From positions 41,252 through 105,251 of the forward strand of contig JARGFM010000010.1 in NCBI GenBank assembly GCA_029210725.1: a stretch of DNA of 64,000 bases, read 5' to 3'. The notes under the pieces were generated by a model. That model was not told the origin of the DNA, did not search any database, and saw only the letters and a program-made list of their open reading frames with translations. Origin of the DNA: Bacteroidales bacterium. GTDB taxonomy: Bacteria > Bacteroidota > Bacteroidia > Bacteroidales > GCA-2748055. Made by a program: the position numbers and the translations under genes. Numbering within the stretch: the stretch's first letter is position 1; every line of letters begins with the position of its first letter. Shown here piece by piece: positions 22,704 through 28,054 of this stretch.

Positions 22704-24605
22704 ATGACTGACGAGTTAAAACACAAGTGTGGCATTGCACTGATCCGCTTACTTAAGCCGCTGGAATACTATCAGCTACAGCATGGATCCTGGAGGTACG
22801 GACTGGAAAAGCTGTACCTGCTGATGGAGAAGCAGCGGAACCGGGGACAGGATGGCGCGGGCCTGGTCAGCCTGAAACTGGATGTTCCCCCGGGGAACAA
22901 GTATTTCAACCACCTCCGGGAAACCGGTTCTTCGGCCATCAATGAAATTTTCAGGAAGATCTACTCCCGCTTCGGAAAGGAAGAGAAACAGCATCCGGAT
23001 ACCTTTATGGATCCAAACTGGGCAAAAACGAACCTGCCCTTTGTCGGAGAGGCCTACCTGGGTCATCTGCGTTATGGCACCTTCGGGGCCAATAATCCGG
23101 ATAACCTTCACCCCGTCATGCGGGAGAATAACTGGCGCACACGCAACCTGGTTTTGGCCGGAAACTTCAACCTGACCAATGTGGATGAACTGTTTAATAT
23201 TCTCGTCGACCTGGGCCAGTATCCAAAGGAATACTCCGATACGGTGACCATGCTGGAGAAGGTGGGGCATTTTCTGGATAATGAGAACCAGAGGCTCTTT
23301 GATCTTTACAAATCCAGGGGTTTTTCAAACAGGGACATCACCGGACAGATCGGGAAGAACCTGGATGTGGCCAAGATTCTGGAAGGAGCCAGCAGGCGTT
23401 GGGACGGCGGGTACACCGTGGCCGGAATGATGGGTCACGGGGATGTTTTTGCCATGCGCGATCCCTGGGGGATCAGGCCTGCATTTTATTATCATGACGA
23501 GGAAATCGTCATTGTCACTTCAGAGCGCCCGGTCATTCAGACAGCCATGAATGTGGAATTTGAGCAGGTGAAAGAATTGCCTCCGGGTCACGCTCTGGTG
23601 GTGAAAAAAAGCGGTGAGATCTCCCTGGAACGTATCAGGGAGGAGCAGGAAAAGAAATCATGCTCCTTCGAACGCATCTATTTCTCCAGGGGAAGTGACA
23701 GGGAGATATACAGTGAGCGAAAGAAACTGGGCGAACTTCTGGTGCCCCAGATTCTGGAGGCCATCGATTACGAGGTGGAAGACACGGTCTTCTCCTTTAT
23801 TCCCAATACGGCCGAATCTGCTTTCTACGGGATGATCAAGGGGATTGAGGATCACATGGTCGTTAAGAAAATGGATGAGTTGATGAAGTTGAAAGGGAAG
23901 TGCAGTCCGGAGGATATCCTGAAAGTAATGAAGGAGCGGGCCCGCATTGAGAAAGTGGCCATTAAGGACCTGAAACTGCGGACCTTTATCTCCCAGGACC
24001 AGGGTCGTAAAGATATGGTAAGCCATGTCTACGATATTACCTATGGGACTATCCGGCCGGGACTCGACAACCTGGTGATCATCGACGACAGCATTGTCAG
24101 GGGCACCACGCTGAAGCAGAGTATTATCAAGATTCTGGACCGTCTGGAGCCCAAAAGGATCGTGGTGGTCTCCTCCTCACCCCAGATCCGGTATCCCGAT
24201 TGCTATGGCATAGATATGGCCAGACTGGCAGATTTTGCCGCCTTCCAGGCGGCCATCGAATTGCTGAAGGAGAAGGAGATGGAGCATGTGATTAATGAGG
24301 TATATAAGAAGTGCGATCAGCAAAGGGGCCTTCCCAAAGAAGAGTATGTCAACTATGTGAAGGATATCTACAAGCCCTTCACCAGGCAGGAGGTGAGCAG
24401 GAAAATCGCCGAGATGCTAACGGATCCGGAGGTGAAGGCCGAGGTGACCATCGTATACCAGAGTATTGAAAATCTGCATAAGGCGGTGCCGGATGATCTG
24501 GGCGACTGGTATTTCACCGGCGATTATCCTACTCCGGGAGGAAACAAAGTGGTCAGCACCTCTTTCCTGAATTATATTCACGGAATCCATACCCGGGCCT
24601 ATTAG
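22704..24605 (+). CDS. Long PurF-type amidophosphoribosyltransferase
   Basis: A 633-residue relative of PurF, the enzyme making phosphoribosylamine from PRPP and glutamine. The N-terminal glutaminase would begin at Cys9 after eight residues (KHKCGIALI), suggesting removal of a short propeptide. RNRGQDGAGL and LGHLRYGTFG are glutaminase motifs. The PRPP loop VIIDDSIVRGTT is at about residues 457-468. It is some 150 residues longer than E. coli PurF because of inserts in the first domain and a C-terminal extension; Bacteroidota commonly carry such a long form besides a normal PurF. Whether it works in purine synthesis or another role is not known from sequence. Confidence 0.85.
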   Translation: MTDELKHKCGIALIRLLKPLEYYQLQHGSWRYGLEKLYLLMEKQRNRGQDGAGLVSLKLDVPPGNKYFNHLRETGSSAINEIFRKIYSRFGKEEKQHPDTFMDPNWAKTNLPFVGEAYLGHLRYGTFGANNPDNLHPVMRENNWRTRNLVLAGNFNLTNVDELFNILVDLGQYPKEYSDTVTMLEKVGHFLDNENQRLFDLYKSRGFSNRDITGQIGKNLDVAKILEGASRRWDGGYTVAGMMGHGDVFAMRDPWGIRPAFYYHDEEIVIVTSERPVIQTAMNVEFEQVKELPPGHALVVKKSGEISLERIREEQEKKSCSFERIYFSRGSDREIYSERKKLGELLVPQILEAIDYEVEDTVFSFIPNTAESAFYGMIKGIEDHMVVKKMDELMKLKGKCSPEDILKVMKERARIEKVAIKDLKLRTFISQDQGRKDMVSHVYDITYGTIRPGLDNLVIIDDSIVRGTTLKQSIIKILDRLEPKRIVVVSSSPQIRYPDCYGIDMARLADFAAFQAAIELLKEKEMEHVINEVYKKCDQQRGLPKEEYVNYVKDIYKPFTRQEVSRKIAEMLTDPEVKAEVTIVYQSIENLHKAVPDDLGDWYFTGDYPTPGGNKVVSTSFLNYIHGIHTRAY

Positions 24606-24634: not shown

Positions 24635-25654
24635 TTATCTCCGTTTGGAAATATGGAATCGGGTAATCAGTTTCTGGACTTTCAGGTTTCTTCTCCTGAT
24701 ATTCCTGATCTTTTGCAGTTGCTTGGGCACATAATTTAATACATGGCGTTCCACTTTGGCCTTGTAGAGGTCATTGACCGTGATCATGATCCCGGTTTCC
24801 TCTACATCACCAAATCCTTTGTTCAGAACCGTGCCAAAAGTTTTCATGGAAGGCGAAAGATTCATATAGGCATTTATAAGGGGCGGAATATTTTCCCCGT
24901 ATGCCCGCACCTCTTTGGACAGGATTTTATAGTCCTCCGAATAATTCTGACCTTTAAAGATTGCAGTGAGTTTGGCCCTGTCTGTGGCCATTGTCAGAGG
25001 TTCTTTGGGAGTAACCAGACCTTCTGTGTCGGGAAAGTGCTTGTTCAGAAAAAAGAGGATCATATCCCTGGCCATCTGATGATAGTGCAGGTACATGGTC
25101 ACTTTTCCAAACAAATATTTCTTACTGGGATAATCGAGTACCAGGGTTCCCAGACCGTCCCAGAGATTGTCAAGTGCATACAGGCCTTTTCGTCTCAGGG
25201 AAGTACTCTGGTACTTGGGTTGAACAAAGGAGCGTCCCAGTTCAATCATATGCGGGACATAGTTTTTTACAAACTCGTCTGAGAAGTTGAAAAGTTTGGA
25301 AGTGGCCAGCCTCACTTTTCCGTCTTTAATGCATTTTCCGGGATCACAGATATAAAAACGGTATCCTCCAAGAATGGCCTGCTCATCAGGGTCCCAGACA
25401 ATAAGCTGCTGGTAGGCCTTCTCGCCGGTATCGAAAGCATCCAGGTCGCATTCCAGGCCTGTACCGCCCCCGGCATTCCGGAAGGATAGTTCCCTGAGCC
25501 GCCCGATCTCCCTCATGGTATGGGGGGAATTTTCGGCATTAATGATATAGATTTTATTCCCGGCTTTATTTGTTTTTCGGATCAACCGTTCCTGAGTAAG
25601 TTCCGCTTTGAGGGCTTCCAGGGGAACAGGAGGTATAATATCTTTCATTTTCAT
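24635..25654 (-). CDS. glsB: N-acyltransferase GlsB (glycine lipid synthesis)
   Basis: A 339-residue GNAT-fold acyltransferase of the hemolysin-like/OlsB type: RELSFRNAGGGTG, GGYRFYICDPG, IELGRSFVQPKYQ. In Bacteroides the homologous GlsB attaches a 3-hydroxy fatty acid to glycine, giving commendamide, and GlsA then adds a second acyl chain. Here a GlsA-like gene lies 10 bases upstream in the same orientation, so the assignment rests on both similarity and the pair. The lipids would be envelope components. Confidence 0.82.
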   Translation of the reverse strand: MKMKDIIPPVPLEALKAELTQERLIRKTNKAGNKIYIINAENSPHTMREIGRLRELSFRNAGGGTGLECDLDAFDTGEKAYQQLIVWDPDEQAILGGYRFYICDPGKCIKDGKVRLATSKLFNFSDEFVKNYVPHMIELGRSFVQPKYQSTSLRRKGLYALDNLWDGLGTLVLDYPSKKYLFGKVTMYLHYHQMARDMILFFLNKHFPDTEGLVTPKEPLTMATDRAKLTAIFKGQNYSEDYKILSKEVRAYGENIPPLINAYMNLSPSMKTFGTVLNKGFGDVEETGIMITVNDLYKAKVERHVLNYVPKQLQKIRNIRRRNLKVQKLITRFHISKRR

Positions 25655-25664
25655 GATTAACAGC

Positions 25665-26534
25665 TTATGTGGTTATTTCGCTGAATACTCCTTCAGGGTT
25701 TTCAACCAGGGTATAGGTATAATCCTTGATCAGGGCAGCCCACTCAAGAGCTGTATGGCGCTTATCAAATGTAGAATAAGGAATCGGTTTCCCGAAAGTA
25801 ATCACAAAATGTTTATTGCGGTGTTTGTAGGATTCGTTGGGAAGGAAGAACATTTCCATGTTGGCCTTGATTCCCAGGAATTTTCTGGTGTTGGCCAGGT
25901 TGTAAAAGAAATTAGAGCACCGGCCTGTAACGTGGATGGGGATAATATCCCTTTTGGTCTGTACCGCCTTGGTAATAATACTCTTTTGCCACTGTGTATC
26001 CCTGATTATTCCTTTTTTCCGCCGGGAAACCAGGCCGGCCGGAAAGGTCATCACCTGCTGGTCGGACTCAAAAATGGCCTGGATACGCCGGACATTTTCG
26101 ATTGCCTGGGCCCCGTGCTTATTGATGGGTACAAAAATGCCGTCCATGTTCTTCACATTGGTCAGCAAGTCGTTGACCAGGACTTTCAGATGCGGGTAGT
26201 TTTTGGATAACTCACTGATTATCATCATACCATCGAAGCCCCCAAGGGGGTGGTTTGCCACAAAAATAAAGCGTCCCTCCGGGGGAAGATGTTCCCTTCC
26301 CTTGACCTCCAGGCTTACACCGAAGACTTCAATGGAAGCCATGGCAAAGTCCACATCCTTTTTATATCCATGGTTGTAAAGAATGGGATCATTCATAAAA
26401 TCGATCCTGAGAATGCGGGACAAAAGCCTGTATACAAAGCCAGGTATCCAGCGGGCCATTCCGGGATTCTTATCCATGAATAAGTCCTTGATATTGATTG
26501 GCTTAAAGTTAAGTTTGTGAGTTTTTTCGTCCAT
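25665..26534 (-). CDS. glsA: O-acyltransferase GlsA (glycine lipid synthesis)
   Basis: A 289-residue PlsC-like lysophospholipid acyltransferase domain protein. The catalytic region reads VANHPLGGFDG (His95, Asp101); the spacing between His and Asp is five residues rather than the four of classical HX4D enzymes. MTFPAGLVSRR and IIPIHVTGR follow as later blocks. By homology with Bacteroides GlsA it acylates the hydroxy group of the N-acyl glycine made by GlsB. First gene of the glsA-glsB operon, divergent from mraZ, with its promoter next to the MraZ operator. Confidence 0.82.
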   Translation of the reverse strand: MDEKTHKLNFKPINIKDLFMDKNPGMARWIPGFVYRLLSRILRIDFMNDPILYNHGYKKDVDFAMASIEVFGVSLEVKGREHLPPEGRFIFVANHPLGGFDGMMIISELSKNYPHLKVLVNDLLTNVKNMDGIFVPINKHGAQAIENVRRIQAIFESDQQVMTFPAGLVSRRKKGIIRDTQWQKSIITKAVQTKRDIIPIHVTGRCSNFFYNLANTRKFLGIKANMEMFFLPNESYKHRNKHFVITFGKPIPYSTFDKRHTALEWAALIKDYTYTLVENPEGVFSEITT

Positions 26535-26575
26535 GGGTATCCGCTTAAGGGCTATCCCGCTCTATAGTGCAAAGA

Positions 26576-26606
26576 CAAAAGTATTAAAAGATAAGTTATT
26601 AACAAA
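26576..26606 (-). promoter_or_regulatory. glsA-glsB promoter
   Basis: On the minus strand TTTG (26606-26603), a 19-base spacer and TACTTTTG (26583-26576) match the full Bacteroidota -33/-7 consensus. The glsA ATG is 42 bases downstream. The -33 element directly abuts the MraZ repeat array. Confidence 0.72.
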
Positions 26607-26641
26607 GTGGGAAAAAGTGGGGTAAAATGGTACAAAGTGGT
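26607..26641 (+). promoter_or_regulatory. MraZ operator (10-bp spaced repeats)
   Basis: Four boxes at ten-base intervals: GTGGG (26607), GTGGG (26617), ATGGT (26627), GTGGT (26637), each followed by five A-rich bases. This matches the TGGGN5 direct repeats bound by MraZ upstream of its own operon. The array ends 40 bases before the mraZ ATG and touches the divergent glsA promoter. Confidence 0.78.
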
Positions 26642-26681
26642 GAAAAAGTATTACTTTTATCCTTAAACCCGTGATAACCCT

Positions 26682-27146
26682 ATGATTACGTTTATCGGAG
26701 ACTATACAGTAAGACTCGATTCAAAGGGACGGCTCTCCTTTCCGGCGGCTTTTAAAAAGCAGTGCAGAGAGATGGTTTCCGATGGGTTTGTGCTGAAACG
26801 TGATCTGTTCGAGAACTGCCTGATTTTGTATCCCATGGATGAGTGGGAGCGGCAGAATAAGATCATACGCTCGCGTACCAATCCCTACAATAAAGAGCAT
26901 GCACGTTTTCTCAGGATGTTTTTTTCCGGGACCGCTGAGGTATCTCTGGATGCCAATAACCGGATGCTTCTTCCAAAGCGTCTGATGGAATATGCCGGAA
27001 TCAGTGATGAGGTGGTTCTGGCGGGTCAGTCCGGAAAGATTGAAATCTGGGCCTCTGAGCAGTATGGAAGAGTCAGTGCGGCAGATGATGATTTTGCAGC
27101 CATGGCCGAGAAAATATTAGGTGGAACAATTGATGAACAGGAATAA
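26682..27146 (+). CDS. mraZ: Transcriptional regulator MraZ
   Basis: A 154-residue protein with two AbrB/SpoVT-like halves, each with the family DXXXR-type motif (DSKGRLSFPAAFK and DANNRMLLPKRL). MraZ binds repeats ahead of the dcw operon and represses it. The expected operator is visible upstream. First gene of the dcw cluster, two bases before rsmH. A near-consensus -7 element (TACTTTTA, 26652-26659) lies between operator and start. Confidence 0.93.
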   Translation: MITFIGDYTVRLDSKGRLSFPAAFKKQCREMVSDGFVLKRDLFENCLILYPMDEWERQNKIIRSRTNPYNKEHARFLRMFFSGTAEVSLDANNRMLLPKRLMEYAGISDEVVLAGQSGKIEIWASEQYGRVSAADDDFAAMAEKILGGTIDEQE

Positions 27147-27148
27147 TA

Positions 27149-28054
27149 ATGGGCTATCATAAGCCAGCATTATTGCATGAAAGCATCGACGGACTATACA
27201 TTAAACCAAAGGGCACTTATGTTGATTTGACCTTTGGAGGGGGGGGACACTCCCTCGAAGTTCTAAAAAAGTTGGGTAAAAATGGCAAACTTGTGGTATT
27301 TGATCAGGATCAGGATGCCCTGGCCAATGTTCCGGATGACAAGCGGCTCATTTTTGTCGGGGCAAACTTCAGATACTTAAAACATTTCCTGAGATATCAT
27401 GCCATTGAGAAAGTAGACGGTATTCTGGCGGATCTGGGTATCTCCTCTTTTCAAATCGACCAGCCCGGGAGGGGTTTTTCCTTCAAATCAGATACTGCAC
27501 TGGATATGCGAATGGATGTACGCAACAGGCGGACTGCGTCGCAGTTGTTGAATGAGGCCCCCCGGGAAGAGCTGGTCAGAATCTTCAAATCATTCGGAGA
27601 GCTTGGAAACGCATCTGCGATCTCCGGTGCTATAGAGGAGTCGAGGATGCAGGGTGCCATTGAAACGACCGTGGACCTGGAGGAGGTGCTCAGAAGGTTT
27701 ATACCCCGGCAGCATCCCAGTAAATTTCTGGCCAGGGTCTATCAGGCCCTGCGCATCGAGGTAAACAGGGAGATGGAGGCTCTCAGGGAGATGCTGATAC
27801 AGACGGCAGCCTGTATGAATACAGGAGGCAGGCTGGTGGTGATTACTTACCATTCCATTGAGGACCGGGTCGTGAAAAACTATATGCGGTCGGGGAATCT
27901 GGAGGGTGAGATAGAGAAGGATTTTTATGGAAATATTCAATCGCCCTGGAAACTGGTGAACCGGAGCGTGATTACCCCCTCGGAAGAGGAGATTAAGGAG
28001 AACAACAGGGCCCGGAGTGCCAAACTGAGAATTGCTGAACGAACCGGACTATGA
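27149..28054 (+). CDS. rsmH: 16S rRNA m4C1402 methyltransferase
   Basis: A 301-residue SAM-dependent methyltransferase (MraW). It opens with HKPALLHESIDGL-type text and the SAM-binding segment VDLTFGGGGHS; DGILADLGISSFQID and the C-terminal RSAKLRIAER are also typical. It methylates C1402 in the ribosomal decoding centre. The stop overlaps the start of ftsL (ATGA). Confidence 0.95.
   Translation: MGYHKPALLHESIDGLYIKPKGTYVDLTFGGGGHSLEVLKKLGKNGKLVVFDQDQDALANVPDDKRLIFVGANFRYLKHFLRYHAIEKVDGILADLGISSFQIDQPGRGFSFKSDTALDMRMDVRNRRTASQLLNEAPREELVRIFKSFGELGNASAISGAIEESRMQGAIETTVDLEEVLRRFIPRQHPSKFLARVYQALRIEVNREMEALREMLIQTAACMNTGGRLVVITYHSIEDRVVKNYMRSGNLEGEIEKDFYGNIQSPWKLVNRSVITPSEEEIKENNRARSAKLRIAERTGL

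Follow-up and report, generated by a model that had tools for sequence, protein, structure and literature searches.

The unexpected result of this analysis is a conserved sequence that flanks the MraZ operator in the Bacteroidales. In the window, the whole 64,000 nucleotide stretch of a Bacteroidales genome that was analysed, four MraZ boxes lie between the divergent genes glsA and mraZ. From sequence comparison these boxes are probably the autoregulatory operator of mraZ with a flank of its own, and glsA a conserved neighbour outside the MraZ circuit; a glsA-MraZ regulatory link as a general feature is not supported by the loci compared. If this explanation alone holds, a plausible regulon claim is corrected, and two genes whose pairing is conserved and whose promoters touch can evidently be controlled separately. 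The flank, and the fact that the boxes stand upstream, raise a testable question, namely whether MraZ of the Bacteroidales represses, activates, or acts together with a partner.

The MraZ operator and its gene neighbourhood

The features of the window that bear on the argument are as follows.

24635..25654, minus strand: glsB, glycine N-acyltransferase (NF053696, 484 bits, cut-off 300)
25665..26534, minus strand: glsA, lyso-glycine lipid O-acyltransferase (NF053697, 336 bits, cut-off 260; PF19576)
26576..26583, minus strand: glsA promoter -7 element TACTTTTG (TAnnTTTG upstream of glsA at a roughly fixed distance in linked and unlinked loci)
26593..26604, plus strand: operator flank AAGTTATTAACA (order consensus AAAAGTTATYAACA), its GTT starting 12 nt ahead of the box 1 GTGG, the usual distance in the order (flank in 96 of 144 mraZ upstreams)
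26603..26606, minus strand: candidate glsA -33 TTTG, within the flank and box 1 (from its spacing to the -7)
26604..26640, plus strand: MraZ operator, four boxes AAAGTGG/AAAGTGG/AAAATGG/AAAGTGG with a 10-base period (pattern match; like arrays before mraZ across the order)
26652..26659, plus strand: probable mraZ promoter -7 element TACTTTTA, 57 nt past the flank GTT, with box 3 at -33 and no TTTG (read from consensus)
26682..27146, plus strand: mraZ, which opens the division and cell wall cluster (TIGR00242, 108 bits, cut-off 98; PF02381)
27149..28054, plus strand: rsmH (mraW) (TIGR00006, 301 bits)

The identities given to glsA, glsB and mraZ by an earlier sequence-only reading of this DNA are borne out by profile scores that are all above cut-off (NF053697, NF053696 and TIGR00242). 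glsA on the minus strand and mraZ on the plus strand stand head-to-head on either side of the intergenic stretch 26535-26681, and an FtsL-like gene follows mraZ and rsmH. The mraZ of the window is the one MraZ gene counted in the whole genome; its product matches the family profile and contains DSKGR and DANNR among four D...R matches, two DXXXR motifs being what we take to mark the MraZ family. Rfam gave no match in 26400-26800, and a scan for sigma-70 promoters and terminators gave none above the shuffled level. Further along the window, 22704-24605 encodes a 633-aa amidophosphoribosyltransferase-like protein, possibly a divergent paralogue, that scores 120.8 bits against the PurF equivalog cut-off of 350. 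A second GlsA-like match in the same genome, outside the window (G000:C17:61753-62481, 136.7 bits), lies in a 635-aa open frame that, judged by its length, is perhaps a fused OlsF-like aminolipid synthase.

The four ten-base-spaced boxes that had been proposed are present: AAAGTGG stands at 26604-26610, 26614-26620 and 26634-26640 and AAAATGG, box 3, at 26624-26630, so that only a detail is altered, box 3 reading ATGG and not GTGG. The four-box pattern has a single match in the window, with 0 mismatches, against 0.00 expected (100 shuffles). Of 30 box-pair matches in the whole genome, those with no more than one mismatch (3) are confined to this array, the remaining 27 carrying two mismatches and a reversed control pattern giving 59 matches; the genome thus has one evident MraZ operator. 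Direct repeats of AAAGTG[G/T] at a 10-base period, placed upstream of mraZ and rsmH and rare or unique in the genome, are the features by which a MraZ operator is recognised, and all of them are found here, box 3 reading AAAATGG. By sequence, the array of the window is a real MraZ operator, that is, a putative binding site. The first box lies about 65-80 nt ahead of the mraZ start in most loci, whether glsA adjoins or not.

A conserved flank beside the first box

We assign the flank to the predicted MraZ operator and not to glsA. It was first spotted by eye in aligned mraZ upstreams and then counted with the pattern AGTT[AT][TG].AACA, which is matched in 96 of the 144 distinct upstreams that were left after removal of duplicates and of very short or N-filled upstreams. 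These comprise 78 of 107 upstreams that face glsA and 18 of 37 that do not, the 37 including loci in which glsA is merely unseen in the fetched stretch; another 9 upstreams match in inverted form. The chance of a match per 200-nt sample is 0.5% (Markov-1 samples). Conservation extends beyond the columns of the search pattern to an AAA ahead of the flank and to the GTGG 12 nt past its GTT, although in 12 of the 96 flank loci none of five in-register positions reads GTGG or ATGG. Four boxes are found in 60 of the 96 loci with the flank versus 7 of the 48 without it, as raw counts of related sequences. Its placing is the same at loci with glsA some 400 nt off and at loci without glsA. It is present in 33 of the 57 families of the order sample and in 0 of the 30 loci of the phylum sample, none of which belong to the order sample. 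The centre of the flank would be on the same side of the helix as box 1, roughly one turn ahead of it. In L061, L101, L243 and L252 a flank-like sequence is inverted (TGTTGAAAACTTTT) and its spacing to the boxes differs.

Genome-wide, the flank pattern gives 2 matches in the genome of the window versus 3 for the control, the second copy being at one unrelated place (L290, with a gyrB-like frame on one side and a further frame on the other) where it looks like chance. Among 24 relatives the flank has 86 matches, of which 20 are at mraZ and 32 in two genomes, and the control has 42; in 22 of the 24 relatives, taken together, the flank is not found beyond the control level. A 13-mer of the flank, AAAGTTATYAACA, occurs 16 times in each of the genomes G389 and G279 (controls 5 and 0), several of the G389 copies being some 90-110 nt away from where a contig begins; these copies perhaps mark the termini of a mobile or repeated element.

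The glsA promoter and its distance from the boxes

The consensus promoter that had been read upstream of glsA-glsB has a real -7 element, but its -33 TTTG is absent from nearly all other glsA promoters. A distance of 19-21 nt between -33 and -7 is here presumed for the Bacteroidota primary-sigma promoter, and TTTG-N19-TACTTTTG is indeed present on the minus strand of the window (26606-26576), reading toward glsA. TTTG-N19..21-TAnnTTTG has two matches in 64 kb versus 0.63 expected by chance, at least two occurring in 14 of 100 shuffles, so that the pattern alone is not significant. PMC7366714 gives TAnnTTTG as the -7 consensus of the Bacteroidota primary sigma factor and states that for Flavobacterium johnsoniae no -33 could be identified. 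A TAnnTTTG of this kind is directed toward glsA in 75 of 105 distinct mraZ-linked loci and in 49 of 64 unlinked ones. TTTG stands 18-22 nt before the -7 in 10 of the 105 linked glsA promoters and 19-21 nt before it in 0 of the 64 unlinked. When 125 glsA promoters are aligned into a profile, the -7 is conserved and little beyond it. The glsA starts used for these loci were extrapolated from a match to a protein profile, and the estimate for the window falls 24 nt inside the gene. Outside the subclade of the window the -33 TTTG of glsA is probably fortuitous. In the window the -33 was said to lie directly beside the boxes; its location, 26603-26606, stands, but it overlaps the AAA of box 1 (26604-26606) by three bases rather than abutting it. 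Since a conserved flank of the mraZ operator lies before box 1, this candidate -33 TTTG is the far end of that flank.

The distance between the glsA -7 and box 1, taken for the match nearest glsA, is at most 30 nt in 5 of the 105 linked loci, which are the window and four congeners, and it is 23 nt in all five. These close-set loci (L129, L130, L131, L132 and L135) keep the 19-nt spacing of TTTG-N19-TACTTTTG unchanged, and the MraZ proteins of the five same-genus close-set loci are 82-94% identical to that of the window. Over the 75 loci with a -7 the median distance is 155 nt, with quartiles of 92 and 199.5, and it follows the distance from the boxes to glsA with a slope of 0.95 (r 0.97, n=75); thus the -7 stays with glsA and the boxes stay with mraZ. 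A second TAnnTTTG in L074 lies 29 nt from box 1, without TTTG or TTG at the right spacing. Within the genus, glsA is faced in 10 loci, of which 5 are close-set and 5 are without the close spacing; in four same-genus facing loci 43-68 nt separate the -7 and box 1, L134 (identical with L067) faces glsA with no exact TAnnTTTG, and in L139 no glsA was seen. A tree of MraZ and GlsA groups the window (L129) at bootstrap 100 with L063, L064 and L065, the numbers under which three more of the five close-set loci stand in the tree, and places L068 outside this group, paired with L067 (79). The glsA promoters of the 64 unlinked loci are without boxes, their best scores being 2-5 versus 2-6 when shuffled.

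Conservation of the head-to-head pair

The order sample contains 295 genomes, 279 of which match the GlsA model, 258 above cut-off. The divergence of glsA and mraZ is conserved in part. The pair is head-to-head in 40 of 46 mraZ loci of named genomes. From the 279 genomes with a match, the 130 best-scoring glsA loci among the matches listed were taken, a non-random set from which G374 and G280 (contig starts) were left out; 6 of the 130 are truncated where the contig or locus stops, and of the 124 testable loci 65 face mraZ and 59 do not within the stretch seen. About 1.5 kb of upstream sequence was covered in most of L033-L062, and at most 2.5 kb in the other loci; locus counts throughout are drawn from related sequences, so they count non-independent events. 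The unlinking of glsA from mraZ in relatives, which the sequence-only reading had itself named as evidence against its proposal, is accordingly seen in those 59 of 124 best-scoring listed loci. Of the 59 non-facing genomes, 31 have MraZ elsewhere and 28 show none, some of the 28 being incomplete. In the phylum sample GlsA is above cut-off in 7 of 198 and MraZ in 186 of 198. Roughly half of the sampled genomes retain the head-to-head arrangement, which could point to a functional tie of some kind. In L066 the glsA frame is interrupted (218 aa versus about 280 in relatives) by either a real frameshift or an assembly error.

It had been proposed that one regulator could set both glsA and the division cluster. 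MraZ as a common glsA regulator across the order is rejected, on the unlinked loci, the lack of a detectable mraZ in many glsA genomes (28 of 59, best-scoring loci), the drifting distances, the mostly missing -33 and the box-free unlinked promoters; a member of the MraZ regulon should have boxes close to its promoter in one relative after another, and for glsA this is not found. As to precedent, only PMC5643525, among the matches listed in the open-access literature searched, concerns the glsA-mraZ pair. The earlier reader had not seen the link described, and among those matches neither a glsA-MraZ regulatory link nor the flank was found described, but the adjacency of rsmH, mraZ, an acyltransferase and a "hemolysin" side by side in Bacteroides vulgatus had already been printed in what is available of PMC5643525. 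That glsA/glsB (choA) locus resembles the one studied here in its neighbours; unlike the present analysis, the accessible text describes no operator or regulation for it (PMC5643525). No MraZ study in the Bacteroidales was found among the matches listed in the same literature.

The mraZ promoter and other MraZ systems

Measured from the flank GTT, a TA..TTT[AG] stands at +57/+58 in 71 of the 96 flank loci and at +47/+48 in 9. Where the mraZ -7 is thus 10 nt nearer, there is one box fewer between, and the flank stays beside the first box. A MraZ ring filling the four boxes would sit upstream of the mraZ -7 and occlude the -33 region, and the filled boxes would most likely limit the access of sigma at -33 and so repress the division cluster. 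Occupation by a MraZ octamer and repression would follow here by analogy with MraZ work in other bacteria. Blocking of sigma at -33 would be the simplest mechanism; MraZ may instead have an activating role.

According to the parts available of three reports on other bacteria, MraZ forms an octamer on (AAAGTGK-N3) repeats, and the division cluster is repressed by it (PMC8475190, PMC5282649, PMC7761207). The boxes of Mollicutes, as excerpted, agree with those of the window in the AAAGTG[G/T] unit, the 10-base period, the placing in the mraZ promoter and the presence of a sole genomic site (PMC8475190, PMC5282649); the window differs in having four boxes and a conserved flank on their promoter-distal side. 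Burkholderia cenocepacia likewise has four 7-base repeats with 3-base spacers, and in it and in Escherichia coli MraZ regulates the division cluster, to judge from the available portion of PMC7761207. The same portion places the repeats of Escherichia coli and Burkholderia downstream of the -10 (in Burkholderia over the start site), whereas those of the window are upstream of the -7 and over the -33 (PMC7761207). It follows that repression by the same geometry is not to be assumed. In other lineages of the phylum sample (e.g. L009-L011, L014 and L017) the boxes come directly after a TTGACA/TACATT-like promoter. Within the phylum, then, the operator seems to have moved from one side of the core promoter to the other.

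Alternative explanations

The suggestion that MraZ lies against polymerase at the glsA promoter fails across the order and is possible solely in the small subclade of the window. There, MraZ bound to box 1 would keep polymerase off the glsA -33, and polymerase there would keep MraZ off box 1, so that MraZ would repress glsA as well as the division cluster. We consider such sharing unlikely: the TTTG does overlap box 1 by three bases, and the TTTG-N19-TACTTTTG spacing retained in five related loci, four of them a bootstrap-100 clade, lends it mild support, but 5 of 10 facing loci of the same genus are without the arrangement, a TTTG at one of the three permitted spacings has a probability of about 2% by local composition, the -33 TTTG is no feature of glsA promoters elsewhere (10/105 and 0/64), and the TTTG comes from a flank that is kept for mraZ. 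The flank might instead be the -33 of a leftward promoter conserved throughout the order, as it reads TTGTTRATAACTTTT leftward and has the exact -33/-7 spacing in the window. This was rejected as most improbable, for just 6 of 105 linked loci have a TAnnTTTG in the 30 nt to the left of box 1, against a flank in 78 of 107, and the position of the flank is unchanged when glsA is absent or some 400 nt away.

That the flank, AAAAGTTATYAACA, is a site for a second regulator, or for DnaA, acting with MraZ on the division cluster is a tentative possibility, and one that is compatible with the boxes being an autoregulatory operator. The near-palindromic core GTTATYAAC, the set spacing to box 1 and the occasional inversion are in keeping with it, but neither the genome of the window (2 matches versus 3) nor 22 of the 24 relatives together show extra flank sites over the control. 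The consensus of the DnaA box is TTATNCACA, and apart from a change of C6 to A the flank resembles TTATCCACA, which we take to be a DnaA box. DnaA itself is disfavoured by this mismatch (the flank reads TTATYAACA) and also because TTATCCACA is enriched in the own genome (57 versus 13) and the flank is not. A composite operator of the whole order has also been considered, in which the boxes and a hitherto undescribed flank lie over the -33 region of a promoter without a -33, the flank is bound by a partner or by MraZ in a second mode, MraZ may help polymerase instead of blocking it, and the assembly reaches the glsA promoter in the subclade and so ties glycine-lipid synthesis to division; to this we give little credence. 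The autoregulatory mraZ operator with its own flank, and glsA as its neighbour, is the explanation we prefer.

Outside the order, a canonical TTATCCACA occurs 186-196 nt before mraZ in L006, L018, L022 and L029, which belong to one family of the class (f3), and L023 of the same family has two copies, at -173 and -161 before mraZ; a DnaA input to the division cluster in f3 is possible, as is shared ancestry.
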